A DNA stretch of 49,815 nt from a virus. The position numbers were made by a program, and so were the translations under genes. The first letter of the stretch is position 1, and each line of letters begins with the position of its first letter. Below the pieces are notes generated by a model, which had not been told where the DNA came from, made no database searches, and saw nothing but the letters and a program-made list of their open reading frames with translations. Location of the stretch: IMG/VR virus record IMGVR_UViG_3300031951_000246, positions 1 through 49,815 of that record, one strand, 5' to 3'. Below, one piece after another: positions 1,837-25,687 of the stretch.

Positions 1837-2234
1837 AGTTTTGAATCTGGTGGGTTAAAGGTTTCTTTTACTTGCTTAGAAATAGGAATAGGCTCTCCTT
1901 CTTCATCTACTCTTACAAAAGTCATACAGGTCTGCAAAAGAATAACTTCGTCTTCTCTAAATACATTGTATGCTCTTGCTTCTACTCGAAAAGTAGCTGA
2001 AGTGTTACCTATTTTAATCATTTGGGCGTAAATCTTAACCAGGTGTTTCTCTTTGGCTGGTTTCTTGAATACGCACTGATCTAGTGAAATTGTAATCATG
2101 TTTTGAGTATGGCATTTCTCCATTGCATAGGCGGCTAATGCTGCGTCTACCCATGCAAGGAGTTTACCACCAAAAAGATTACCGTGGAAGCCTAAATCAG
2201 ACTTCTTTACTGGGTGTGTTACTAATAAATCCAT
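1833..2234 (-). CDS. Hot-dog fold acyl-CoA thioesterase
   Basis: It is predicted to hydrolyse fatty acyl-CoA to free fatty acid and CoA in the cytoplasm. The N-terminal part contains the family signature HGNLFGGKLLAWVDAALAAY (residues about 16-35), as in YciA/BACH-type thioesterases, followed by beta strands typical of a single hot-dog domain. The length (133 aa) fits the family. I chose the ATG at 2234 because it forms a TAATG junction with the upstream gene; an in-frame ATG at 2261 would add nine residues. A lipid-metabolism enzyme inside a phage operon is unusual; possible roles are host lipid remodelling or acyl-CoA/acyl-chain scavenging. Confidence 0.85.
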   Translation of the reverse strand: MDLLVTHPVKKSDLGFHGNLFGGKLLAWVDAALAAYAMEKCHTQNMITISLDQCVFKKPAKEKHLVKIYAQMIKIGNTSATFRVEARAYNVFREDEVILLQTCMTFVRVDEEGEPIPISKQVKETFNPPDSKL

Positions 2235-3115
2235 TAGAATATGTATCTTATTGTGTTCCAAGGAATGAACTGGTCGTGTAACTCAGTCCATTGTTTGATG
2301 TACTTAGCCTTTAAGTCGTGTCGGTAACGAATGTTCTTACCTCCGTATTGACTTATCTTGTTTTCTTGTATCTCAGGTTGCCACAAGAGATACTCTCCTT
2401 TAGTTCCATACATAAGGTTGTGCTGATGTTTACCCTCATTGTGTGTGAGGAAGATAACCTCAGCTTTAACTAAATCTTTGTACTTTACATGCTCTTCTAC
2501 TTGTTTGAATAGATACTCGTAGTGTTCTAACCATCTATCGTGTACTATAATTGGAGAAAAGTTGATGTGAACGTCATAACCTGCTTCTATAAATCGGTCT
2601 ATCGCTTTTATCCGATCAAGTATAGGACTGGTATTTGGCTCTAAAAGATCTGCATAGTACTGAGGCATCAAAGAAAACCTAACTCTAACTTTACCTTCAG
2701 GGTTGAACTCAAGTAGTTTATTGTTTACATACTTGGTAGCAAATGAAGCCATAGCTTTAGGATGTTCTTTGAAGAACTGTAGAATGTACTGCCAAGGATA
2801 ATACCTAAGATGTAACGCAAAATCTTCATTACAAGAGATGTCATACGTTATATACTCATCATGTGTTTGGTTAGGCTTATCTACTACGGCAAAAGTGCAG
2901 TGGTTGTTTATCTCTGTTAGTATATCATTGATATTGGTTGCCACTGTTAATCCATCAGGCTGGTGTCTTTTCATGTAGCAGTAGGAACAGTTGAACAAAC
3001 AGCCATAGCCGAAAGAAGGACTAATGAAGTCAGTCGATCTTCCGCTAGGCCGTATGTCAAATGTTTTTCTTACAACTTCACGAATTGGTTGCCTTGCAAT
3101 GTCCAATCTATCCAT
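2234..3115 (-). CDS. Radical SAM enzyme, spore photoproduct lyase-like
   Basis: The cluster motif C39-x3-C43-x2-C46 (GCLFNCSYCYMKRH) binds a 4Fe-4S cluster that cleaves S-adenosylmethionine. The CYM context and the SPL-like layout (FGYGC.FNC.YCY) suggest the spore photoproduct lyase/DNA repair branch of the superfamily. The 293 aa form one domain, slightly shorter than bacterial SPL (about 340 aa). Its start overlaps the helicase gene by 46 bases. The neighbouring helicase makes a nucleic-acid substrate plausible. An alternative is a radical SAM enzyme with another substrate; I cannot identify the substrate-binding Cys/Tyr of true SPL with certainty. Confidence 0.8.
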   Translation of the reverse strand: MDRLDIARQPIREVVRKTFDIRPSGRSTDFISPSFGYGCLFNCSYCYMKRHQPDGLTVATNINDILTEINNHCTFAVVDKPNQTHDEYITYDISCNEDFALHLRYYPWQYILQFFKEHPKAMASFATKYVNNKLLEFNPEGKVRVRFSLMPQYYADLLEPNTSPILDRIKAIDRFIEAGYDVHINFSPIIVHDRWLEHYEYLFKQVEEHVKYKDLVKAEVIFLTHNEGKHQHNLMYGTKGEYLLWQPEIQENKISQYGGKNIRYRHDLKAKYIKQWTELHDQFIPWNTIRYIF

Positions 3116-14104: not shown

Positions 14105-14401
14105 ATGGCAATCATATCAACCAAACCAACCATTGTAGACGGGGTAGAGTATCCTCTACTTCTAGTTAACTTAGCCATATCTCCACTTGTTCAAGAAGGA
14201 GGAATCATCGGAGCATCAGTTGCTATGCGTTTGACTCCTTACAGAGACTTGGGAGGAAACATCGAACAACTTCCTGACTACGCTAAGGCTGTTTCTTACT
14301 TTGATGTTTTTAAAGAAGCTGAGTCTGACCCTGAAATCGCATCTGCGGTAGGAAAGATCATGACAGGTCTTCAAGAGTTTATTACTGATAAAGGACTTTA
14401 A
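14105..14401 (+). CDS. Hypothetical protein between fibre genes, 98 aa
   Basis: Reads MAIISTKPTIVDGVEYPLLL, with a small beta domain followed by a C-terminal helix (DPEIASAVGKIMTGLQEFIT). The stop overlaps the next start (TAATG). Small proteins like this between fibre genes can be fibre-joining or assembly factors. No family is recognised. Confidence 0.7.
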   Translation: MAIISTKPTIVDGVEYPLLLVNLAISPLVQEGGIIGASVAMRLTPYRDLGGNIEQLPDYAKAVSYFDVFKEAESDPEIASAVGKIMTGLQEFITDKGL

Positions 14402-16191
14402 TGGCACAAAGGGCTGCAATAGCATCTGGTAACTGGAGTAATCCAGCTATTTGGAACGGGGGAGTACTTCCTGAACCTGGAGATGTTGTTGCTTCTAACG
14501 GCTTTACAGTTACTATTGACCAGAATATTAACGTAGATTCAATTACAAATGCGGCAACTACGGTAGGAACCGAAGTTCCTTTAATGACTTCTAATACCGC
14601 ACCTAGTGGTATTGCTTCTAATAATGGTACAGGAGGTTTTGCAAGTTTTTCTGCTTATTTGTCTTTTGATCGTAGTTTTGGTCTTTGTTATTATCCAGGA
14701 CCAGTTACAGGGGATTGGATTGCATACGAATTTGCTACTGCTAAAAAAATAGGAAGATTCGGTGTATCTTTTAATGGAGGTTCAAATACTGTTAGTTATA
14801 GCTTAGAAGCATGGAATGGTTCTACTTGGATTGTTATTGGAACTCATACAGCAAATGGTAGTTTTACCAGTCCATATTTTGTAAATACAACTGCATATCT
14901 TAAGTATAGAATAGTACTTTCTGGCACTAATACAGGAGCTCAAATAACTGAGTTTTATTTGTACGATGCCTTGTCTGTAGCTGCAACAGCAGGAGGAGGA
15001 TTTATTGTAGACGCAACTAGAACTTTAACTTTTACAAGTAGTGTCTATAGTATTTCAGCAGGAACGGTAACTTGTTTAACTTACTCTGGAAATTCAAGTA
15101 CTACATTAACTATAAGTGCAGGAGTTGGGGGTATCAGTAGTGTATCTGCTACGAATCGGGGCTGTATTGAGGTTACGGGAGGTGGGAATGTAAATATTAC
15201 TGCTAATTTAAATTACTTGCAGGTTTGGGCAACAAATAATTCAAGACTAAGACTTGTAAGTGCAGGCACTGTAAATATAACAGGAGCTTTATTAGCAGGA
15301 GGACAGGGAGGATATGCTGTACATGTAGTAGGTAATAATATAACACTTAATGTAGTAGGTAATTTGTTTGGAGGAGGAGATAATGATGCCTATGCTATTT
15401 CAGCTTCTGGTTTAAATAATACTATTACTGTTGTAGGGAATCTTTATCCTAGTGGAGCTAACAGAGCAGGAGGAATTAATATGGCTAGTACAGGAACTTT
15501 AAATGTTACAGGTAATGTTTATGGAGGATATAATCCTGGACAACCTGGTTACGGCATCCTACTAGCAGCTGTTTGTACTTGTAATATTACAGGAAATATT
15601 ACCTTAGAAGGTACACAAAGCGCTCCTGCTTTTTATTCTAACGTAGCTTCTTATGTAAATCATATTGGAGCTATAAGTTCCAGCGTAACAACTTCTACAT
15701 CACAAATTTTTATATCACTTAATGCCTCAGCTATTAATATTTTAACAGGGCCTTTTATTTCTTCTCCTACAGGAGGTCAACCTCTTTATGTATCTCGTAT
15801 GCACTACAGGAGAACAATGGGTTCTTATTTTGAGTTTAGAAATAACAGTACAAATGGAGCTTTACCTCCAGCTGCTCCTGCTCCTGCTACTAGATTGGTA
15901 AGTCCAGATACAGTAGCAGACTCTCCTATTCCTGCAAATGTACGACAAGGAACAGTTTATTCATTAGGTTCTCAAACAGGCACAATGATAGTACCTTCTC
16001 CGTCTAACGTAGCCAACAATGTACCTGTAGACAACACAGTAGGAACAGCAGTCCTTGACCCTAACGCTATATGGGCTGTCCCACTAACTTCCATCAATAC
16101 CTTAAATAGTATAGGAAGAAGAGTTAAAAACGCTGCTACAGTAGAAACTACTGGAGCACAAATTCAAACCACATTAAATAATAACGAGTAA
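14401..16191 (+). CDS. Adhesin-like beta-solenoid protein, copy A
   Basis: 596 aa. The N-terminus (ASGNWSNPAIWNGGVLPEPG) is the 'G.W..p..W.gg..P..gd' segment seen in beta-solenoid surface proteins. Residues about 60-190 (VPLMTSNTAPSGIAS ... KYRIVLSG ... YLYD) look like a discoidin/F5-8C-type carbohydrate-binding domain. Residues about 200-460 are Asn/Thr/Gly-rich with repeated 'NxTGNxYGG'-type turns, typical of a parallel beta-helix. The C-terminal 130 residues (ATRLVSPDTVADSPIPANVR ...) are shared with the next gene. Likely a virion receptor-binding or depolymerase-like appendage. Confidence 0.7.
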   Translation: MAQRAAIASGNWSNPAIWNGGVLPEPGDVVASNGFTVTIDQNINVDSITNAATTVGTEVPLMTSNTAPSGIASNNGTGGFASFSAYLSFDRSFGLCYYPGPVTGDWIAYEFATAKKIGRFGVSFNGGSNTVSYSLEAWNGSTWIVIGTHTANGSFTSPYFVNTTAYLKYRIVLSGTNTGAQITEFYLYDALSVAATAGGGFIVDATRTLTFTSSVYSISAGTVTCLTYSGNSSTTLTISAGVGGISSVSATNRGCIEVTGGGNVNITANLNYLQVWATNNSRLRLVSAGTVNITGALLAGGQGGYAVHVVGNNITLNVVGNLFGGGDNDAYAISASGLNNTITVVGNLYPSGANRAGGINMASTGTLNVTGNVYGGYNPGQPGYGILLAAVCTCNITGNITLEGTQSAPAFYSNVASYVNHIGAISSSVTTSTSQIFISLNASAINILTGPFISSPTGGQPLYVSRMHYRRTMGSYFEFRNNSTNGALPPAAPAPATRLVSPDTVADSPIPANVRQGTVYSLGSQTGTMIVPSPSNVANNVPVDNTVGTAVLDPNAIWAVPLTSINTLNSIGRRVKNAATVETTGAQIQTTLNNNE

Positions 16192-17957
16192 TGGCACTAA
16201 GAGCAGCAATAGCATCTGGTAACTGGTCAAACCCAGCAACGTGGAATGGAGGAGTTCTTCCTGGCCCAGGAGATATAGTAGCGTCAAATAACTTCACAGT
16301 TACAATAGATCAAAATATTAATGTTGATACTTTAACAAACACAGCACAAAGTCTAATTACAGCTGTTCCTTTAATGACTTCTAATACAACACCAAGTGGT
16401 ATTGTCACAGGGTTAGGAGGAACAAGTGCTTACATTGCTTTTAATGGGTCAGTCTCACAAAACAGTTTTACCAATGCGAATCCAGGTGACTTTTTTGGAT
16501 ATGAATTTACTTCACCAAAAGCAATTGACATGTTTACTTTTGTTTTGGGAGGAAGTATCACAACTAATATCTCTTTCCAAAGTTGGGATGGTTCTGCTTG
16601 GATTACTTTATATACTGCTGTACTTGCAGGTGTAAACACATTTACCAGTCCTCTTATAGGCAATAGTGTTGCTTACATAAAATACAGGTTTTTAATAAAT
16701 ACCACTGCTACTTTACAAATGAGGGAAACTTATTTGTATGAGTATTTATCAACTACTGCAGCAGTAGCTGGCGGTGGATTTATTTTAAATAGTGGAATCA
16801 CAGTAACTACTACAGGGGAAACAGGACTATCTGCTGGGTCTACTGACTTAATTACTTTTTCAAGTAGTGGCACGGCAACAATAAATTGTGGTACTGGAAA
16901 TATACTAAGACCGACATCTGCTTCAGCTATTTCTACAATAAAGGTAACAGGAGGAGGTACGTTAAGTATTACAGGAAATTTAGAACCAGGTTCAACGAAT
17001 GGTACTAGCAGGATCCTACATATTACAACAACAGCAGGAGCAGTTGTTAACGTGACAGGAAGAGTATATGGTGGAAATTCAAACGGTATTTTAACAGACG
17101 TAAGTTGTACATTAAATGTCATTGGCAATGTACTTGGAACTAATACTAACGGACCAGTAGCAAGTATTTGGTTTGGTGCAGGAGGCACATTGAATGTTAC
17201 AGGAAATATTTATGGAAGCGAAGGATTTAACAACAATGGTTACGGAATTTATTTTAATATAGGCAATCTTAATATTACTGGAAACGTATATGGTGGTGAA
17301 AACCAAGGAGTGAATGATTGGGGAATACAAATAGTAGGGATTGCAACTGTCTATATTACAGGTAATCTTTTTTCAGGAAACTCTCCTAGCACAAATAATT
17401 TTCCAGCAATAAACTGTACTACCGCCTCTTACATAAATCAAGTAGGAGCTATCTATGCAGGAAGAAACTCTGTCGGTTTTGTCTCTTCAAGTAGTACTGC
17501 TATAAACCTATTAACAGGACCTTTTGTATGTAATGAGTATGGATTCTTTCCTTACCAAGTTGTAAGAATGCATTTAATACCTAGTACAAGTTCTTATTTT
17601 GAATTTAGAGACGAGACAACCAATGGTGCAATACAACCTGGCGCTATTGCACCTGCTACTCGTTTAGTATCTCCTGCAACTTTAGTAGATAACTTAGCAG
17701 TTTCTGATGTGCGGTTTGGTACTACCTACGCTTTAGGTACATTGACTGGGACTTTGAGAATGCCTAGTGCAAACCAAGTAACCTTTGGAATTCCTGTAGA
17801 TAATACTTTTGGAAACGCAGTATTGACCGCTGCTTCTGTTTGGGATTATCTAGTATCAAACATTACAGTAGAGAACAGTATAGGAATGAGACTAAAGAAC
17901 GTAGCTACTCCTCAAAGTGTTGGAGAACAGCTAGAAGCTTTTCTAAGATTAGATTAA
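16191..17957 (+). CDS. Adhesin-like beta-solenoid protein, copy B
   Basis: 588 aa, a tandem paralogue of the preceding protein. The first 50 residues are nearly the same (ASGNWSNPATWNGGVLPGPG), the discoidin-like and beta-helix parts are diverged, and the end (ATRLVSPATLVDNLAVSDVR) again matches. It starts with a TAATG junction. Having two diverged copies suggests recognition of two glycans or two receptors. Confidence 0.7.
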   Translation: MALRAAIASGNWSNPATWNGGVLPGPGDIVASNNFTVTIDQNINVDTLTNTAQSLITAVPLMTSNTTPSGIVTGLGGTSAYIAFNGSVSQNSFTNANPGDFFGYEFTSPKAIDMFTFVLGGSITTNISFQSWDGSAWITLYTAVLAGVNTFTSPLIGNSVAYIKYRFLINTTATLQMRETYLYEYLSTTAAVAGGGFILNSGITVTTTGETGLSAGSTDLITFSSSGTATINCGTGNILRPTSASAISTIKVTGGGTLSITGNLEPGSTNGTSRILHITTTAGAVVNVTGRVYGGNSNGILTDVSCTLNVIGNVLGTNTNGPVASIWFGAGGTLNVTGNIYGSEGFNNNGYGIYFNIGNLNITGNVYGGENQGVNDWGIQIVGIATVYITGNLFSGNSPSTNNFPAINCTTASYINQVGAIYAGRNSVGFVSSSSTAINLLTGPFVCNEYGFFPYQVVRMHLIPSTSSYFEFRDETTNGAIQPGAIAPATRLVSPATLVDNLAVSDVRFGTTYALGTLTGTLRMPSANQVTFGIPVDNTFGNAVLTAASVWDYLVSNITVENSIGMRLKNVATPQSVGEQLEAFLRLD

Positions 17958-18295: not shown

Positions 18296-18934
18296 ATGAA
18301 CTATACAAGAGAACAAATTGAAGCCGCAGTAAAAGCCAAGGGCTATGCTTACTTTGATGGCACAAAAGACTACGATGTAAATATCATCGGAGTACGTAAC
18401 TCTTCTACTGGTAACGATGTTACTAACTTGTTTGATGACACTATGACTGTTGCTTACAAAGTAGGAGGCAAATGGGTATTTCACCAATGGATGGCTACCA
18501 CAGATCCAGGTACTAAAGGTGTTAGAGAATTTCACAATGCTGGTGGAGTAGCAAGACTAGTTCCAGGTCAGTACAGAGGTTCACACGGTATTGGTCTACA
18601 CCAAGGTAAGTACGAAGCTTTGAAGCAAGCTAAACCAGTGAAGGTTTATCGTGATGCTAACAAAGACATGACTTACGATGAGAATACCATCACTGAGGGT
18701 ATCTACGGTATCAACATCCACAAAGCTGGTGCAGATTCTACTTTTGTAGAAAACTGGAGCGAAGGATGCCAAGTGTTTAAGCGTGAGAAAGATTTTAACC
18801 AATTTATGGAAATCTGTAAACAAGCTCGTGGCATTCATGGTAACTCTTTCACTTACACCTTGATTGAGTCTGGTGACTTTATTGTTGCTGACAAAGTAAA
18901 AGGCGAAGCTAAAAGAGCTGCTAAGAAAAAATAA
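18296..18934 (+). CDS. L,D-transpeptidase/YkuD-like cell-wall enzyme (endolysin)
   Basis: 212 aa, no signal peptide. The catalytic-type motif is GINIHKAG (H142) then WSEGCQVF (C158): His-x15-Cys in an S-x-G-C context, as in YkuD-type enzymes that act on peptidoglycan tetrapeptides. It lacks a separate binding domain. Between a holin-like gene and a peptidase lipoprotein, it most likely cuts or remodels peptidoglycan at lysis. The length fits a single-domain phage enzyme. Confidence 0.65.
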   Translation: MNYTREQIEAAVKAKGYAYFDGTKDYDVNIIGVRNSSTGNDVTNLFDDTMTVAYKVGGKWVFHQWMATTDPGTKGVREFHNAGGVARLVPGQYRGSHGIGLHQGKYEALKQAKPVKVYRDANKDMTYDENTITEGIYGINIHKAGADSTFVENWSEGCQVFKREKDFNQFMEICKQARGIHGNSFTYTLIESGDFIVADKVKGEAKRAAKKK

Positions 18935-19389
18935 TGAAAAGACTACTCGTTAGTCTTTTAATATTCTTGACTATCTCCTGCAAAGCACAAACTATTGCTA
19001 AGGCAGGAGATGGTTGGGATTTAAAGATTGACTCAGCCATACAACTTATAAAGACCATTGACCCTGAAAAGTACAAAGTCTTTACAGATGTATGTCAAAG
19101 AGTTGATTTTTGGAAAAGTTCTTTTTCTTCCACAGGTGTAGTCGAAGGAGACTATACCATACTAGTAGCAGACGCAGACATTAAGTTAAAGTCTATCAAT
19201 AACTTAGCGGCTGTGTTAGTTCACGAAAGTATGCATTTAGTATTTGTTTTACAAGATGCAGTCATGAGTGAAAAGGAAGAAGAGTATAAGTGCTATTTGT
19301 ATGAATTATCCTTTATTAAAAACATCCCAACCCCCGAGCCTTGGTTACTGGCAAACCTTTATGAAAAATTGCAAAAATATAAACCATGA
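18934..19389 (+). CDS. HExxH metallopeptidase-like lipoprotein
   Basis: 151 aa. The lipobox ISC (Cys16) follows a signal peptide (MKRLLVSLLIFLTISCKAQ). The zinc-binding motif HESMH lies at 97-101, with candidate third-ligand Glu residues in EKEEEYKCYLYEL (113-125). The domain is at the small end for a gluzincin-type peptidase. It should work at the periplasmic face of a membrane. It may cut envelope proteins during lysis or mature the secreted proteins encoded next to it. Confidence 0.65.
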   Translation: MKRLLVSLLIFLTISCKAQTIAKAGDGWDLKIDSAIQLIKTIDPEKYKVFTDVCQRVDFWKSSFSSTGVVEGDYTILVADADIKLKSINNLAAVLVHESMHLVFVLQDAVMSEKEEEYKCYLYELSFIKNIPTPEPWLLANLYEKLQKYKP

Positions 19390-21275
19390 AAAAAATACTT
19401 TTGTTTGCGTTGGGATTGTTTATCCTCACTACTAACTTATTTGCACAAAGTGCAAACACTTCTCCTGGAACTGGGCATTGGGTTGTTATCGACTCAGGTT
19501 ATCAAGTAGCTACAACTACTGTAGGTAAAACTGTTGCTCCGTTACATTTCTACAACACTTCTACTAGTGAAAAAATTACAGGTATGCAGTTTCGTGTATT
19601 TTACGATAACACTGCATTTACTGGTGTTGTACCTTCTTTGAAGATTTCTACTTCAGATCAGTATCTTCAGTATGTAGATAGTAATTTACAAGGATTTTTA
19701 ACTGTAACTCTAGCTTACACAGGTTCTAGTTCTACTTTTAACTATTCTGACGGTGCTACATTTGATTTAACTTTTACTCACGCTGCCGAAGCTATATTTA
19801 ACAACTTAGATTCTATCAAGACTTTGAAAGTTGCAGGTGTGAAATCATTTGCAAATAGAGCTGCTACTAACTGGGGTAACGATACCACTTTGGTTGTCTA
19901 CTCTTATGGTGGTCGTTTCAACCAAAAGGTTCTTCGCTTTGCTGCTAAGTTTAAAAACGTTACGGGTTCTGATGCTAAGAATCTTTGGGTATCTTTAGAA
20001 AAGAAAGCTCCTACAGGTTCTTGGACACATGTAGAGTCAAAATCAACTAACTCATTGGGCCACGTAGTATTTAAGAAATTTATTGATACTACCTACTGGG
20101 ATGTAAGAATGGTTGTTAAAGGCGATACAATGACTCCTGGTAACGTATTCTCTACTGCTGATGCACAAAAGATTAACCAAGCAATCCTTGCACAATATAC
20201 TCCAACAGGATTTGACTACTACACTATGGATGTAAACGGAACTAGCGGAGACATTTCTATTGCTGACGTTTACTCTGTATACGGACGTTTGGCAGGAAGA
20301 TTCTCTTCTTGGCCCAACTCTAAAAAAGACGTAATGTTCTTTACAGTAGCTGAGTATAATGCTATCAACGGTGCTACTGCTAATCCAACCTCTACTTACG
20401 CAACTGTTAACAACTTCAACTATTCTATTGACGGTAAAGACTCTATTACTTACTACGTAGCAGTTAAAGGAGACGCAAACTCTACAGGATTTAAAATGGC
20501 TCGTTTGACTCCTATTAAAATTGTTAACCAAGCAAATGCTAAGAACTACATCATTGACAAAACAGTAAGCTATGATGATCCTTCTTTGGAGACAGTAGAA
20601 ATCAATATGCCCAAAGTAAAAGTAGAGGATGGCAATTTGGTGAGCGTACCAGTTAAAGTTTTAACTAACGGTAAAGACCTTACTGCTCTTCAGTTAGACC
20701 TTAAATATGATACTGCTTACTTGTCTTTCAAACAGATTGAAGTAACAGAAAAAATCATGAAGTGGACTGCCTACACAAACCCTTCTAATGGAGTTGTGTC
20801 TTGGGGAGGAGCTGACCTTACAAATGACAATCTGTTAAAAGACGGAGAACAAGTATTTACTCTTCAGTTCATTGCTAAGAAACCACAGGATTCTTGGGCT
20901 ACAGCAGCCATCTGGACAGCAGAAAAGTACGTAGGTGATAACAAGGCTAAGGATATGAACATTAGACCTACTATGGGCATTGTTGAGGTTCGTAGAAAAG
21001 GATTGGTATCTATCAACCAAGTAAGTGACCTAATAGCATTTCCAAATCCTTCAGAAGGTGCTATCCAAGTACAATTCAAGATAGCCGAAGAGTCTGATGT
21101 AAACTTGTCTTTGTACAATGAGGTAGGTCAGTTAGTCCAAAATATTCTAGACAAGCACATGCCTGTAGGAAACTATAAGTATAGTGTAGATTTAGAAAGA
21201 TTACCTGACGGAGTTTATATCTTAACTCTTAAAACAGAAAAACAATTCCTAGATTCTAAACTATTAATCATATGA
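19386..21275 (+). CDS. T9SS-sorted protein with cohesin-like and dockerin-like modules
   Basis: 629 aa. The signal peptide (MKKILLFALGLFILTTNLFA) is followed by Q. Residues about 30-155 (KITGMQFRVFYDNTAFTG) and about 395-530 (LTALQLDLKYDTAYLSFKQI) look like two cohesin-like beta-sandwiches. Residues about 245-305 carry a dockerin-like pair: NVFSTADAQKINQAILAQY then MDVNGTSGDISIADVYSVYG. The last 85 residues (FPNPSEGAIQVQFKIAEESD ... LPDGVYILTLKTEKQ ... SKLLII) are a type A type IX secretion sorting domain. It should be exported to and anchored on the host surface. This is not a usual virion protein. Confidence 0.8.
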   Translation: MKKILLFALGLFILTTNLFAQSANTSPGTGHWVVIDSGYQVATTTVGKTVAPLHFYNTSTSEKITGMQFRVFYDNTAFTGVVPSLKISTSDQYLQYVDSNLQGFLTVTLAYTGSSSTFNYSDGATFDLTFTHAAEAIFNNLDSIKTLKVAGVKSFANRAATNWGNDTTLVVYSYGGRFNQKVLRFAAKFKNVTGSDAKNLWVSLEKKAPTGSWTHVESKSTNSLGHVVFKKFIDTTYWDVRMVVKGDTMTPGNVFSTADAQKINQAILAQYTPTGFDYYTMDVNGTSGDISIADVYSVYGRLAGRFSSWPNSKKDVMFFTVAEYNAINGATANPTSTYATVNNFNYSIDGKDSITYYVAVKGDANSTGFKMARLTPIKIVNQANAKNYIIDKTVSYDDPSLETVEINMPKVKVEDGNLVSVPVKVLTNGKDLTALQLDLKYDTAYLSFKQIEVTEKIMKWTAYTNPSNGVVSWGGADLTNDNLLKDGEQVFTLQFIAKKPQDSWATAAIWTAEKYVGDNKAKDMNIRPTMGIVEVRRKGLVSINQVSDLIAFPNPSEGAIQVQFKIAEESDVNLSLYNEVGQLVQNILDKHMPVGNYKYSVDLERLPDGVYILTLKTEKQFLDSKLLII

Positions 21276-21622
21276 AACTAAAAGAAAAATTAGGTTTTGG
21301 CCAAGCAGAACCCGTAGCAGTAGCAGACAACAATCGTTTCTACTACATGTTGCAACAAATGCAAGCCAATCGTTGGAAAATTACAGCTATTGTATTGGGG
21401 TTGTTTACCTTAATCATAGTTGGTATTAATGCTGCTGTCTTTGTAGGAGCTTCTATTGGAGAAGACTGGAAAGAAATGTTACTTATCCTCTTAGGAGCTT
21501 TTGTAGGTAACTTGAACAAAGTAGTTGACTACTGGTTCAACTCTGAAGATAGAGACAAAATGTTAATACAGAAGGTGGATGAGGAGGATGGTGTATCTTT
21601 GTCAAACACAACTAATCCATAA
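21272..21622 (+). CDS. Holin-like two-pass membrane protein, 116 aa
   Basis: Two membrane segments, KITAIVLGLFTLIIVGINAA (about 36-56) and MLLILLGAFVGNLNKVVDYW (about 70-90), follow a cytoplasmic N-terminus and precede an acidic tail. The LLGAFVGNLNKVVDYWF end is like phage holins. The start overlaps the previous stop (ATGA). Confidence 0.6.
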   Translation: MKLKEKLGFGQAEPVAVADNNRFYYMLQQMQANRWKITAIVLGLFTLIIVGINAAVFVGASIGEDWKEMLLILLGAFVGNLNKVVDYWFNSEDRDKMLIQKVDEEDGVSLSNTTNP

Positions 21623-21626
21623 TATT

Positions 21627-21950
21627 ATGTCAGAAGAACAAGAAGAAGGCGGAATGTCTGGTGTAAAGAAGGCAATCATCGGAGCAATTACCACAGCGGT
21701 AACTGCAGGTGGTGCTTGGTTTGCTACTCACTTAGGTGGTGGCGAAGATGAAAAACCAGAAACTCCAGCAGCTGTAGCTGCTCCCGCACCTGTGATTAAC
21801 ATCACTACGAACAACGAACAGAAGCAACAGGCAAACACTGGTGGCGGTAATACCGTCATCATTAAGGAAAAGGTAGCACCTGCTGCATCTACTCCTGCCC
21901 CTGCTGCTCCTGCATCTAAACCCCAAGCAGATGAAGAAGATCCTTGGTAG
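21627..21950 (+). CDS. Single-pass, Ala/Pro-rich protein (spanin-like candidate), 107 aa
   Basis: I start at ATG 21627 (MSEEQEEGGMSGVKKAIIGA), since an earlier frame start lies inside the previous gene. A weak membrane segment (AIIGAITTAVTAGGAWFATH) is followed by an Ala/Pro-rich flexible stretch ending in acidic DEEDPW. Location after a holin-like gene suggests an inner-membrane spanin-type subunit, but this is inference. Confidence 0.55.
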   Translation: MSEEQEEGGMSGVKKAIIGAITTAVTAGGAWFATHLGGGEDEKPETPAAVAAPAPVINITTNNEQKQQANTGGGNTVIIKEKVAPAASTPAPAAPASKPQADEEDPW

Positions 21951-22620
21951 CCTACTGTTAATAATCCTTATCTATGGTTGTGGTTCTATGAAGACCACAA
22001 CCGAGGATGAGGTTATTGAGAAAAAAGATATTTCTAGCGTGTCTGGATATACTGATTCTATTAAGAAGAACGTACAAGTAATTAGCATGGACATGACTAA
22101 AGTGTTGGCTATGTACCCAAGTCTTCAAGAGAAAAATGTAGGTTTAGGTTTTGCAGAATCCGTATTAGATTATTTAGATGAAACAAATCGTTTTGTATTT
22201 ACTGAAGAGAAGGGTGAAATCAAGGAAAGGATGGTAACTCAATTCAAAGCTTCTAAAAAAGGAGTCTTTGAAGAACCTATTGACGGCAAAGGAAAAATTA
22301 AAGCTGCCCACTACTTTGTTTATGTAACCGTTGCTGATTTTGCAGTAGACGAGGACGAGACTGTACAAGGTGGAAAAGCTAAAGTAGTGGTAACTACTTT
22401 TATCCGTTTGCAAGTTCGATTTGTAGACGCTAAAACAGGACAAATTTACATTGGTTCTGGTGAAGGCGAATCTATAAAAGTAGGAGAGTCGTTCTTAAAA
22501 TCTCTAGACGATATGAAGTTTTCTCAAAGTACCGTAGGTAAGGCAACACGAAAGTCGCTTGAAACAGCAACTACCAAAGTGATTGAAAACCTTATTAGAA
22601 ACGGTGTCTTTAAGAGCTAA
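21931..22620 (+). CDS. CsgG-like outer-membrane lipoprotein
   Basis: 229 aa. The lipoprotein signal ends at Cys17 (LLLIILIYGCGS). The mature part follows the CsgG-type pattern: a helix before TNRFVFTEEKGEIKERM, then the strand set KAAHYFVYVTVADFAVDEDE and a long strand pair (VVVTTFIRLQVRFVDAKTGQ ... IYIGSGEGES) before two C-terminal helices ending in ETATTKVIENLI. CsgG family proteins make outer-membrane secretion channels for curli-like fibres. It overlaps the previous gene by 20 bases and is followed by a predicted barrel protein. Confidence 0.65.
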   Translation: MKKILGSLLLIILIYGCGSMKTTTEDEVIEKKDISSVSGYTDSIKKNVQVISMDMTKVLAMYPSLQEKNVGLGFAESVLDYLDETNRFVFTEEKGEIKERMVTQFKASKKGVFEEPIDGKGKIKAAHYFVYVTVADFAVDEDETVQGGKAKVVVTTFIRLQVRFVDAKTGQIYIGSGEGESIKVGESFLKSLDDMKFSQSTVGKATRKSLETATTKVIENLIRNGVFKS

Positions 22621-24046
22621 CATATTAATCTTACTATTGAGTATAGGACTGAGTTTAAAAGCTCAGTCCTTTACTTACTCGTACAAAGATCCGTGTACAA
22701 AAGAATTAAAGTTCATTCTTGCTGATATGAACTCTCCGATAGTAATAAGTTACTACGGACAAGTAAAAAACTTCAGTTACACAGAATTGCAGGACGGTAC
22801 ATTTGACGCTTGGTTAAATTATACTTATGCCAATTACAAAACAACAACCCCATGTCAAGGAGTTTTTGCAACAACTACTACAACTACAAGCACAGCAACT
22901 ATAACTTCTTTAGTAAATAATGTGATGAATCTTAACTCTTTAACGAGTTTAGATTTATCTTCGACTTCGCTAGGATCAAGTACTTCAGTAGGAAGTACAA
23001 CATCTTCTGGCACAAATGTAAAAAATGACTCTAAAAATGGAAGCTCGAATAACAAAGTTGGTAGTAATGGAAACAATAGTACTACTGATAATTCTGGGAA
23101 TAATTCTAGTAACAGTGACCAGTCATCTGGACAAGGGTCCAATACGTCGTCGGAAGGACAAGTAGGCAATGGAAGCAACTCAGGTAATAATTCTAATGGC
23201 TCTAATGATGCTGGGGGTAACTCTGGGAGTGGCTCTAGTTCTTCTTCTAGTGGTGGTGGTAATGGTTCTGGTGGAGGTGGTGGTTCAGGCACCGCAGGTG
23301 ATAAGAAACCTGAAGAAAAAACTCCTGAAAAGATAGAAGAACAAAAGAGTGAAACTCAACAAGCAGGTGGAAGTTCGTCTGCAAAAGCCGCTGCTAAAGG
23401 GAAAGTAGAAACTCAAAAACCAGCTATTCTAGTTACAGGAGATATAGTTGGAGTCCAAACAGTGCAAGATAAAGCACAAGACGCTAGGGCAACAATGTCC
23501 TTTACTAGAGTTAAAGGAGACGGTACTGCCTCTGTTGGACTTGCAGCTGACTATATGGTCAATGCTAAAATAGGAAACTTTAACGGCGTGCGTTCTTGGA
23601 TGGGCGTTAACAAGAAAGGCAACAAACATATCAATGTTCTTTCGGCAGGAATTAACCTCATGCCAAAGTCTTACAACGGTTCTTTGTTGTTTGTAAGGGT
23701 AAACTCGCTGAAGAACTTTACAGCGCTCTACGGAGCCGCCGCATCGTATGGCGAGTTATTTCAAGAAGAAGTTATATCTACCCTACTGATAGGCGGTTTT
23801 ATGTATAAGGGACAACTTACTAAACACATAGATGCTACTATTATTGCCGCTAGTGTTTACGCTCCTTATACAAAGTATTACACAGAATCTTTATTTGAAT
23901 CTCAACCAATTATAGTTCCTTTTCTAAACATCAACTACTCACTTACAAAAACTTTTAAGTTCGGACTTACAGGAGGAGGCACGTACATCGCCAATCAGGA
24001 TGTCGTCAATTATCAAATCTTAATGGGAGGTAAGTTAAAGATATGA
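22604..24046 (+). CDS. Secreted low-complexity/outer-membrane barrel protein
   Basis: About 480 aa. No ATG is available. I use GTG 22604, giving MSLRANILILLLSIGLSLKA as signal peptide; TTG 22583 would add seven residues. Residues 1-100 form a small domain with two Cys. Residues about 110-260 are Ser/Asn/Gly linker (GGNGSGGGGGSGTAG). The last 200 residues alternate hydrophobic strands ending in LMGGKLKI, as in outer-membrane beta-barrels. It probably spans the outer membrane with an exposed or periplasmic linker, and may partner with the CsgG-like protein. Confidence 0.6.
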   Translation: MSLRANILILLLSIGLSLKAQSFTYSYKDPCTKELKFILADMNSPIVISYYGQVKNFSYTELQDGTFDAWLNYTYANYKTTTPCQGVFATTTTTTSTATITSLVNNVMNLNSLTSLDLSSTSLGSSTSVGSTTSSGTNVKNDSKNGSSNNKVGSNGNNSTTDNSGNNSSNSDQSSGQGSNTSSEGQVGNGSNSGNNSNGSNDAGGNSGSGSSSSSSGGGNGSGGGGGSGTAGDKKPEEKTPEKIEEQKSETQQAGGSSSAKAAAKGKVETQKPAILVTGDIVGVQTVQDKAQDARATMSFTRVKGDGTASVGLAADYMVNAKIGNFNGVRSWMGVNKKGNKHINVLSAGINLMPKSYNGSLLFVRVNSLKNFTALYGAAASYGELFQEEVISTLLIGGFMYKGQLTKHIDATIIAASVYAPYTKYYTESLFESQPIIVPFLNINYSLTKTFKFGLTGGGTYIANQDVVNYQILMGGKLKI

Positions 24047-25245
24047 GATGGCTAGTCATTCTACTCTTGTTTGCAAGTCCTCTGAAGGCTCAATTTACTT
24101 ATTCTGGATACTTGTACAATGCAAACGGTTCGGGCGCCTCTAACGTTCCCGTAAAAATATACAAGAGTACAGCAGGTGCTACTACTAAGTCAGGTACTTT
24201 TGCTAAGATAACTTCAGGTATTCCTTCAGATAGAGGACGAGGAACTTCAGTACTTCACTCAACTGCTAACACAGATGAAAAGTCTGTGGCTATTACATTT
24301 CCTTCTGGCTTTAGTCCTTCTTACGCAGGAACTAGCTATTCTTCAGGCCACGTTAACGCTAACTCTTGGTTTACTTTTGGAACAAGTTCTAGTACTGGAT
24401 ACAACGGAAATGCTACTAGTCCTAATCAACCTACTATCCATATTGGGTCGGTGGATAATGGCTCAACAGATAACAACGTTTCTTATGTATCAACTGAAAG
24501 TTACACTGATGGAACTTACGGTGATGTGTTTAGAGTAAGATACGAGGGTAACTGTAAGTACAACCAAACGGGAATCAATTATGTTTGGGATTTATACTTT
24601 ATTAAAAACCAAGCCTCAAAGCAGATAGTGGTTTGGAGAACATTCACCGCAGACGGTTCCAACCAAGAAATAATGGGTATATCTACAGGTAGTGCTTGGA
24701 TGGCAAGTACTCTCGTTACTACTGGTTCTTTTTCTGGCACTAGTTGGGAGATAAACACAACCTCAACCACTACAACAAGTTCTAATGTACTTGACGCTAC
24801 TGCATATACTAACTCATCGGGATACTACTCTTTCTCAAGAACTACAGTAGCAGGTAATCAATTCACTATTCAAGTCGATGCTCCAACTAGGATTCAAGCC
24901 TACACAAACTCAGACATCCAAGCAATATCAGACCTCATCCTCAATAAAGTGGTTAAGACTGGGTTGACTTTTCAGATGTTTGACGTAAACGATGACTCTA
25001 AAATAACTGTAGCAGATAAATACTACGTAGCGGCAAGAAAGGCTGGAAGATTTTCTAAGTGGAGAATAGCACCTGATGTCCGTATCTTTACAACAGCACA
25101 ATATGATGCTATCAAAGCTGCCACAACAAATGTAAGAGGAACTTATCCTGGAGTCAGTACTTATACTACTTCTACTCTTACTTCTGGAGGAAGTTTAAGT
25201 CTTTACCTAATAGCACCTGGTTATGCAGGACAAGTAACATACTAA
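24043..25245 (+). CDS. Secreted protein with dockerin-like C-terminal module
   Basis: 400 aa. The signal peptide (MRWLVILLLFASPLKAQ) is followed by a CarboxypepD_reg-like start (YSGYLYNANGSGASNVPVKI), a beta-rich Ser/Thr-rich middle, then YTNSDIQAISDLILNKVVK and FDVNDDSKITVADKYYVAAR (about 290-330), a dockerin-like Ca-binding pair. The next 70 residues (KAGRFSKW ... RIFTTAQYDAI) match the same region of the 629-aa T9SS protein. It has no T9SS sorting domain of its own, so it may attach to the cohesin-like partner. Confidence 0.7.
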   Translation: MRWLVILLLFASPLKAQFTYSGYLYNANGSGASNVPVKIYKSTAGATTKSGTFAKITSGIPSDRGRGTSVLHSTANTDEKSVAITFPSGFSPSYAGTSYSSGHVNANSWFTFGTSSSTGYNGNATSPNQPTIHIGSVDNGSTDNNVSYVSTESYTDGTYGDVFRVRYEGNCKYNQTGINYVWDLYFIKNQASKQIVVWRTFTADGSNQEIMGISTGSAWMASTLVTTGSFSGTSWEINTTSTTTTSSNVLDATAYTNSSGYYSFSRTTVAGNQFTIQVDAPTRIQAYTNSDIQAISDLILNKVVKTGLTFQMFDVNDDSKITVADKYYVAARKAGRFSKWRIAPDVRIFTTAQYDAIKAATTNVRGTYPGVSTYTTSTLTSGGSLSLYLIAPGYAGQVTY

Positions 25246-25246
25246 C

Positions 25247-25687
25247 ATGAAAAAACTAATCATACTCTTAATCCTAGCATTTGCAGGTTCGTTGAATGCA
25301 CAATGCTACAAAATTGACACCGTTAGAAACCACACACAACTAAGAACTATTGCAGGTAGGCCTGTAGACTTTGGTATAGTGGCAACGGCTGAACAACTTA
25401 TCTCTGCCAAGTATTCGCTGTGCGATACAGGCATTGGAGTTGACCTTGCAATTAACACAATTGCTATGCCTCAAAGACTAATTAACATTGCAGGGTTGCA
25501 GTTTTTAAAGAGGGACTATGTAGTCAATATGTCCATCACAGCTAATAACATTACACATTATTCTAGGAACGTAAAGACCGTTTATGTCAATGCTATGTTC
25601 CTAACTGTAGAGGACATTCCTCACAACAAAAAAGCATACTCTAGGGCAGTAGAGAAGTGCTTAATAGATTTAGTTAAGGAGTTGTAG
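25247..25687 (+). CDS. Secreted hypothetical protein, 146 aa
   Basis: The signal peptide (MKKLIILLILAFAGSLNAQ) is followed by Cys two residues on (QCYKID), which may be a plain signal peptidase I site. The mature part is beta-rich and ends in a helix (AYSRAVEKCLIDLVKEL). Last gene of the envelope cassette, with only one base between it and the previous stop. Possibly a periplasmic accessory of the CsgG-like/barrel pair; no family is recognised. Confidence 0.65.
   Translation: MKKLIILLILAFAGSLNAQCYKIDTVRNHTQLRTIAGRPVDFGIVATAEQLISAKYSLCDTGIGVDLAINTIAMPQRLINIAGLQFLKRDYVVNMSITANNITHYSRNVKTVYVNAMFLTVEDIPHNKKAYSRAVEKCLIDLVKEL

Follow-up and report, generated by a model that had tools for sequence, protein, structure and literature searches.

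A conserved gene block of crAss-like and T4-like phages encodes a T9SS-tagged cohesin-like scaffold and points to export of a swappable lectin-type partner

In this study, a window of 49,815 nucleotides, the whole of one IMG/VR virus record, was found to encode a phage protein (629 aa) carrying a type IX secretion system (T9SS) type A sorting domain behind cohesin-like modules, among other genes for exported proteins. The data point to an export block of several genes that is conserved and includes a swappable lectin-type partner. Overall, the best explanation, to which we give a probability of about 0.55, is that a T9SS-exported scaffold presents a swappable lectin on infected cells, or releases it. 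This suggests that these viruses change what is displayed on the surface of infected cells. The scaffold and its parts are as follows.

19386..21275, + strand: T9SS-tagged scaffold, 629 aa, ATG start; in order, signal peptide, cohesin-like 1, CNA-B-like, dockerin-like, cohesin 2, T9SS type A sorting domain
19386..19448, + strand: signal peptide, residues 1-21, with Q21 after a small residue (Q-rule); sequence MKKILLFALGLFILTTNLFAQ, recognised by eye
20121..20333, + strand: degenerate dockerin-like segment, residues 246-316, 37-40% identical to the adhesin module, Pfam dockerin below cut-off
20598..20963, + strand: cohesin 2, residues 405-526; PF00963; Foldseek matches to solved cohesins, E from 1.8e-9
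21039..21269, + strand: T9SS type A sorting domain; PF18962, TIGR04183; the family-tag profile matches solved T9SS tags

The initial annotation had recognised the C-terminus as a type A tag, and the HMM searches bear this out. Residues 552-628 match both PF18962 Por_Secre_tail (E 2.3e-11, 44.2 bits for a cut-off of 27) and the type A model TIGR04183 (E 1.1e-8, 35 bits for a cut-off of 23), and the motifs it had named are present, with FPNP near residue 552, LPDGVY, and SKLLII at the end. The window tag thus has no basic residue at its very end (LLII), where many relatives have K. A profile built from 22 family tags matched two solved T9SS tags, 8glk (E 1e-5) and 8glj (E 2.5e-4), as well as the uncharacterised protein 5jvk (E 6e-6); its match to the gingipain tag 5hfs was weaker (E 0.0035).

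A scan of IMG/VR matched 101 stretches, 98 of which encode a relative of the scaffold, most aligning end to end; 80 were kept. The tag was first counted in 28 of these 80 loci, mostly on long contigs, together with Flavobacterium phage immuto and a Leptolyngbya phage. It occurs exactly once per record in all 28 IMG/VR family records and in immuto, and is missing from the Leptolyngbya phage, the 30th record, which had been chosen for its terminase, so that 29/30 are over cut-off. A second count, on 21 of 33 later loci, again gave exactly one tag in each of these further family records (one an immuto phage). All these records except the Leptolyngbya phage were chosen for encoding the family, and presence of the tag is therefore by construction; the information lies in its single copy. 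Among 17 other crAss-like or related phages picked by hand (gut, Cellulophaga, F. psychrophilum and others, the Leptolyngbya phage included; 16 of them drawn from 148 records with a related terminase), none had a tag over cut-off and 2 had weak sub-cut-off matches. The respective numbers for control genomes were 0 and 3 of 14. Sub-cut-off tag matches were seen in csAssE-Sib (L103, E 0.001) and in Cellulophaga phage phi4:1 (L104, E 0.007). By tblastn, the window tag alone had no match among 'phages' and the tag of another family record, L055, matched immuto alone, at E 5, both queries being too short to show absence.

The tag is under purifying selection, with a dN/dS of about 0.18 (150 non-independent pairs of proteins 80-98.5% identical). 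Elsewhere in the scaffold, the ratio was 0.07-0.17 for the other folded parts, 0.22 for the linker and 0.39 for the signal peptide. Columns invariant in 33 rows include PNP, G581, G595, G609, Y611 and K625. The tag is more diverged than the cohesins, which we counted against the scaffold explanation.

Signal peptides were called by a hydrophobic core followed by [AGSC]Q, a pattern that corresponds to the Bacteroidetes Q-rule in the available part of PMC5837995. The survey covered N-termini with an upstream stop, outside immuto, and adhesin rows of up to 450 aa, longer ones being the scaffold itself. The signal peptide proposed earlier for the scaffold is visible by eye, and a hydrophobic core, a small residue and then Q were found in all 39 distinct scaffold N-termini; Q21, directly after the signal peptide, is invariant (33/33 rows). 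The same pattern holds for two neighbouring gene products, a protein with an HExxH motif (41/41 N-termini) and the adhesin discussed below (38/38). It holds as well for 45 of 50 N-termini of the barrel-like protein 22583-24046, whose five exceptions look mostly like mis-picked starts, and just 22/37 N-termini of protein 25247-25687 have a signal peptide with Q. A lipobox was present in 44/44 N-termini of lipoprotein 21931-22620. These phages thus bear a series of exported proteins with Bacteroidota-type signals. The claim that the phage protein uses the host T9SS is well supported in silico, by both tag models, selection, the Q-rule and the occurrence of the tag once per family record.

It might be argued that the scaffold is a virion part, either head decoration or fibre, with adhesive beta-domains, and that its signal peptide and tag are relics. 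In the window, the gene indeed has tail-like genes to one side and head genes to the other, BACON proteins encoded close to crAss-like head genes have been proposed to decorate the capsid (PMC6949934), and a literature search, covering some sources in part, returned no virion proteome of a relative, which could exclude such a role. Relics would have to be reconciled with the retention of the signal peptide in 39/39 distinct N-termini and of the tag by selection, and one block would have to serve both crAss-like and T4-like virions, which have no detectable common terminase. We therefore hold a virion role to be improbable.

The genes around the scaffold are listed below, with the number of loci in which each is linked to it. 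For each gene, only loci with enough flank were considered, the window's own locus and that of immuto being counted in.

18934..19389, + strand: exported protein with HExxH motif; Q-rule signal peptide 41/41; linked in 63/67 loci with room
21272..21622, + strand: small membrane protein (by eye); linked in 71/78 loci; weak Pfam matches only
21579..21950, + strand: small protein with a single hydrophobic stretch and a tail of low complexity; linked in 76/76 loci
21931..22620, + strand: lipoprotein, weakly CsgG-like; lipobox 44/44; linked in 72/72
22583..24046, + strand: exported protein with a low-complexity middle and an outer-membrane-barrel-like C-terminus (by eye); signal peptide 45/50; linked in 61/61
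24043..25245, + strand: exported adhesin, a CNA-B-like shell holding a swappable insert and followed by an EF-hand/dockerin-like module; linked in 59/59
25247..25687, + strand: small block protein, exported in part of the family; signal peptide with Q 22/37; linked in 57/57

Upstream of the block, the tail-like genes were found in 9/48 and 9/52 loci; the terminase was found in 27/45. The motif of the HExxH protein, which adjoins the scaffold in 63/67 loci, reads HESMH and is zinc-peptidase-like. Database searches with 22583-24046 gave no informative match. For lipoprotein 21931-22620, Pfam CsgG matched weakly in 4/15 family members (E 0.024), a PDB sequence search had no match, and the top Foldseek match was CsgG (E 4e-3), on a poor model (mean pLDDT 47.5). 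VIA returned a mixture of Rad52, PelC, LptE and CsgG at Z 6-7.5. With weak Pfam matches, no PDB sequence match and mixed folds, we take its CsgG identity as suggestive only.

Alternatively, the block, with the tagged protein as one component, may weaken the outer membrane and thereby aid lysis. An endolysin-like gene, 18296-18934, lies immediately upstream of the block in the window (phrog_33083, E 4.4e-12), and matches to the chitinase and holin of immuto are found just downstream in many T4-like loci. In immuto itself, however, the chitinase and holin genes are about 30 kb from the block, and a component of lysis would not be expected to have exchangeable lectin, PA14 and GEVED inserts. Both points make this role very unlikely.

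We next turn to the modules that would link scaffold and adhesin. The initial annotation had placed cohesin/dockerin-like modules between the signal peptide and the tag. Its cohesin part held: PF00963 matches two stretches, both N-terminal of the tag (E 7.2e-11), and is over cut-off in 29/30 records. The AlphaFold model of the whole scaffold has a mean pLDDT of 49.5 and is usable for cohesin 2 alone. Its best Foldseek matches are nevertheless solved cohesins (E from 1.8e-9, TM up to 0.83 on target length), among them cohesin modules outside cellulosome scaffoldins (2jh2, 2xdh). None of the PHROGs families matches the scaffold at E 0.1. The dockerin assignment is less secure, PF00404 being over cut-off in 0/30 records. 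PDB dockerins were matched at E 0.14-0.15, behind unrelated chains, and the dockerin-like loop of immuto gene 14 has no leading Asp; both points were counted against the scaffold reading, as were the lack of a T9SS tag on adhesin 24043-25245 and the poor quality of the structure models.

In immuto, the scaffold is encoded by two genes. The first product, of 363 aa, has a signal peptide, a cohesin-like and a dockerin-like part and no tag; the second, of 243 aa, combines a separate signal peptide with a cohesin and the T9SS tag. We found this second protein in 27 loci, as the 243-aa form in 20 (immuto included) and as the fused form in 7 (one cut off). The partner gene is directly upstream of the 243-aa form in 18/20 loci, the remaining two loci starting too close. 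The split is therefore no isolated frameshift. Since the two halves are separately exported and only one of them is tagged, this organisation suggests cooperation in trans, in which one half would be the anchor, the other the adaptor and the lectin the effector.

These observations bear on a rival account, in which the T9SS-exported scaffold acts alone as a released or surface adhesin, its cohesin folds are plain beta-domains and the neighbouring adhesin is independent. Type A tags are compatible with release (PMC12618676, in the part available), the Foldseek matches extend to cohesins outside cellulosome scaffoldins, and the dockerin matches are weak both in Pfam and in the PDB. Independence fits poorly with the linkage of the adhesin gene in 59/59 loci with room, and action of a single protein with the adjoining halves in 18/20 loci of the split lineage. 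We consider this account unlikely.

The neighbouring adhesin contains two parts of note.

24163..24792, + strand: swappable insert, window type, no Pfam family; once in 10/30 records, always at this gene's position
24865..25077, + strand: EF-hand/dockerin-like module of the adhesin; loop D, N, D invariant in 26 rows; one calcium-loop motif

Pfam searches on 31 adhesin members gave C-type lectin in 16, PA14 in 2, GEVED in 1 and weak dockerin in 10. The adhesin was located in 54 of 81 loci, the other 27 being those in which the contig ends too early or the pattern missed the gene. Motif typing of these 54 gave 22 C-type lectins, 20 inserts of the window type, 9 PA14 and 3 GEVED or GEVED-like, two of the latter three being assigned by eye. 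On the scaffold tree of 51 rows, insert type switches at least 10 times, and two loci (L001 and L003) have scaffolds 97% identical and different inserts. The window insert was also found in five records labelled T4-like, at 91-92% identity in four and at 77% in the fifth (L062). The scaffolds of those four are 70-74% identical to that of the window, and the insert therefore moved more recently than the scaffold.

Two inserts were searched for in 30 records. They were present once in 10/30 and once in 14/30 records, never together in one record, and had no second match in any of the 30 at E 1e-4. Because of this, there is no sequence-level support for the proposal that the adhesin masks a receptor by copying the receptor-binding module of the phage itself. 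In one locus (L117), exported proteins of 422 and 334 aa are encoded upstream of a split scaffold, the second being lectin-like; this block possibly has two adhesins.

The block is found in two kinds of virus. The window itself comes from a crAss-like phage, as judged from its terminase (phrog_6681, E 1e-93), portal (phrog_6547, E 4.7e-96), capsid (PF23898, E 3.5e-28) and muzzle (PF25731, E 5.8e-36), and in immuto the head and baseplate genes are T4-like. Two records, L055 and L080, whose scaffolds share 72 and 74% identity with that of the window, have an immuto-type terminase, at 64 and 59% identity respectively, and immuto backbone genes flank the block in further records. Records were labelled T4-like when flank genes matched immuto; some labels rest on two genes (e.g. 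L041, L042, L044), and three loci with one match each (L012, L024, L032) were left unlabelled. No shared terminase was detectable between the crAss-like and T4-like carriers. In a 50-row tree of scaffolds, all 22 T4-like rows lie to one side of a branch, and three crAss-like rows whose terminase is divergent are interspersed among the others. Given the two backbones and this tree, transfer of the block between virus types, followed by its retention, is the simplest reading.

How the presentation of a lectin by the scaffold might work can be outlined from the signals and modules of its parts. The scaffold would be exported by Sec, signal peptidase I would expose its N-terminal glutamine, and the C-terminal tag would direct passage across the outer membrane by the host T9SS translocon with PorV, after which it would be anchored on the surface or released. 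We regard this route as highly probable. Outside the cell, the cohesins would then grip the untagged adhesin 24043-25245, with its lectin-type insert, by the EF-hand/dockerin-like module, a step to which we give even odds. The layout would be that of a small scaffoldin, with cohesin 2 and the tag as anchor, cohesin 1 and the dockerin-like segment as adaptor, and the lectin with its dockerin-like module as effector. As for the crossing of the outer membrane by the adhesin, it could ride with the scaffold, or else pass via lipoprotein 21931-22620, which may be of the CsgG/PelC kind (weak matches). The purpose may be a remodelling of the infected cell surface, whether for adhesion, aggregation or exclusion of rival phages, taken jointly; we put this forward tentatively.

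In cellulosome scaffoldins, cohesin and dockerin are arranged in an anchor/adaptor/effector layout. The phage block resembles them in its cohesin fold and in this layout, and differs in being viral, in having a T9SS tag as anchor and a lectin-type effector, and in the weak similarity of its dockerin-like module to known dockerins. It is possible, though somewhat less likely than not, that unrelated phages of Bacteroidota, crAss-like and T4-like, share a mobile, cellulosome-like display unit that rewrites surface binding of the host cell during infection. Its anchor would be a cohesin protein with the T9SS tag, its adaptor a cohesin/dockerin-like part, either fused to the anchor or separate, and its effector a dockerin-like lectin whose binding heads can be exchanged.

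Phage T9SS cargo as such is already known, from Cryophage and from the crAss-BACON contigs, both papers being cited here from the parts available. Cryophage has T9SS cargo genes with type A tags, termed a unique occurrence, for which superinfection exclusion was suggested (PMC7468147). It shares with the present block tagged phage proteins, presumed use of the host system, variable cargo and a PA14-domain gene. It differs, as compared by description, in having three variable tagged genes (an endoglucanase, a glycoside hydrolase and the PA14 gene) in one 76-kb phage (PMC7468147), whereas the present phages, which are many and of two kinds, each encode one conserved cohesin-like tagged scaffold and, as a second protein without a tag, a swappable adhesin. 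The crAss-BACON contigs are likewise crAss-like, with T9SS-tagged proteins upstream of head genes (PMC6949934); they are gut contigs, and the tags are mentioned in passing beside BACON proteins, in a text that does not contain the words 'cohesin' and 'lectin'. On the bacterial side, the type A tag of F. johnsoniae supports static anchoring or release, and RemA of Flavobacterium johnsoniae is also a lectin-domain adhesin delivered by such a tag (both from the available part of PMC12618676). RemA is a host protein involved in gliding, with lectin and tag on one chain; the proteins described here are viral and on separate chains. In the open-access literature, partly available as excerpts and without most subscription papers or preprints, we found no phage T9SS block described that is cohesin/dockerin-like and presents a lectin. 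If the display reading is true, lytic phages of a major aquatic phylum hijack host outer-membrane export to reprogram the surface of infected cells, a lectin head is traded between virus types, and the remarks of two earlier papers become a conserved, testable system.

A restriction of hosts to T9SS-bearing Bacteroidota, as first annotated, fits these data as a candidate. The only cultured relatives are the immuto phages, infecting Flavobacterium sp. LMO8; phages and host being isolated, display, superinfection and adhesion are directly assayable. A scan of bacterial genomes with two peptide patterns, which could miss distant bacterial relatives, returned one scaffold relative, on a 16.5-kb contig (RFPL01000028.1) of a MAG labelled Sphingomonadaceae. 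This contig is probably misbinned phage DNA, and the host was therefore not named from that MAG. The closest annotated terminase (38.5%) is that of a phage filed under the cyanobacterium Leptolyngbya (PP438436.1); other terminase matches are mostly from phages of Bacteroidota, and the Leptolyngbya host label may be wrong.

Elsewhere in the window, two genes on the minus strand encode a thioesterase-superfamily protein (1833-2261, PF03061, E 1.4e-15) and a spore photoproduct lyase-like protein (2234-3115, PF20903, E 4.1e-27), the latter an observation in a crAss-like phage. Finally, the adjoining proteins 14401-16191 and 16191-17957 have nearly alike N-termini and look like a duplication; the product of the first matches a tail family.
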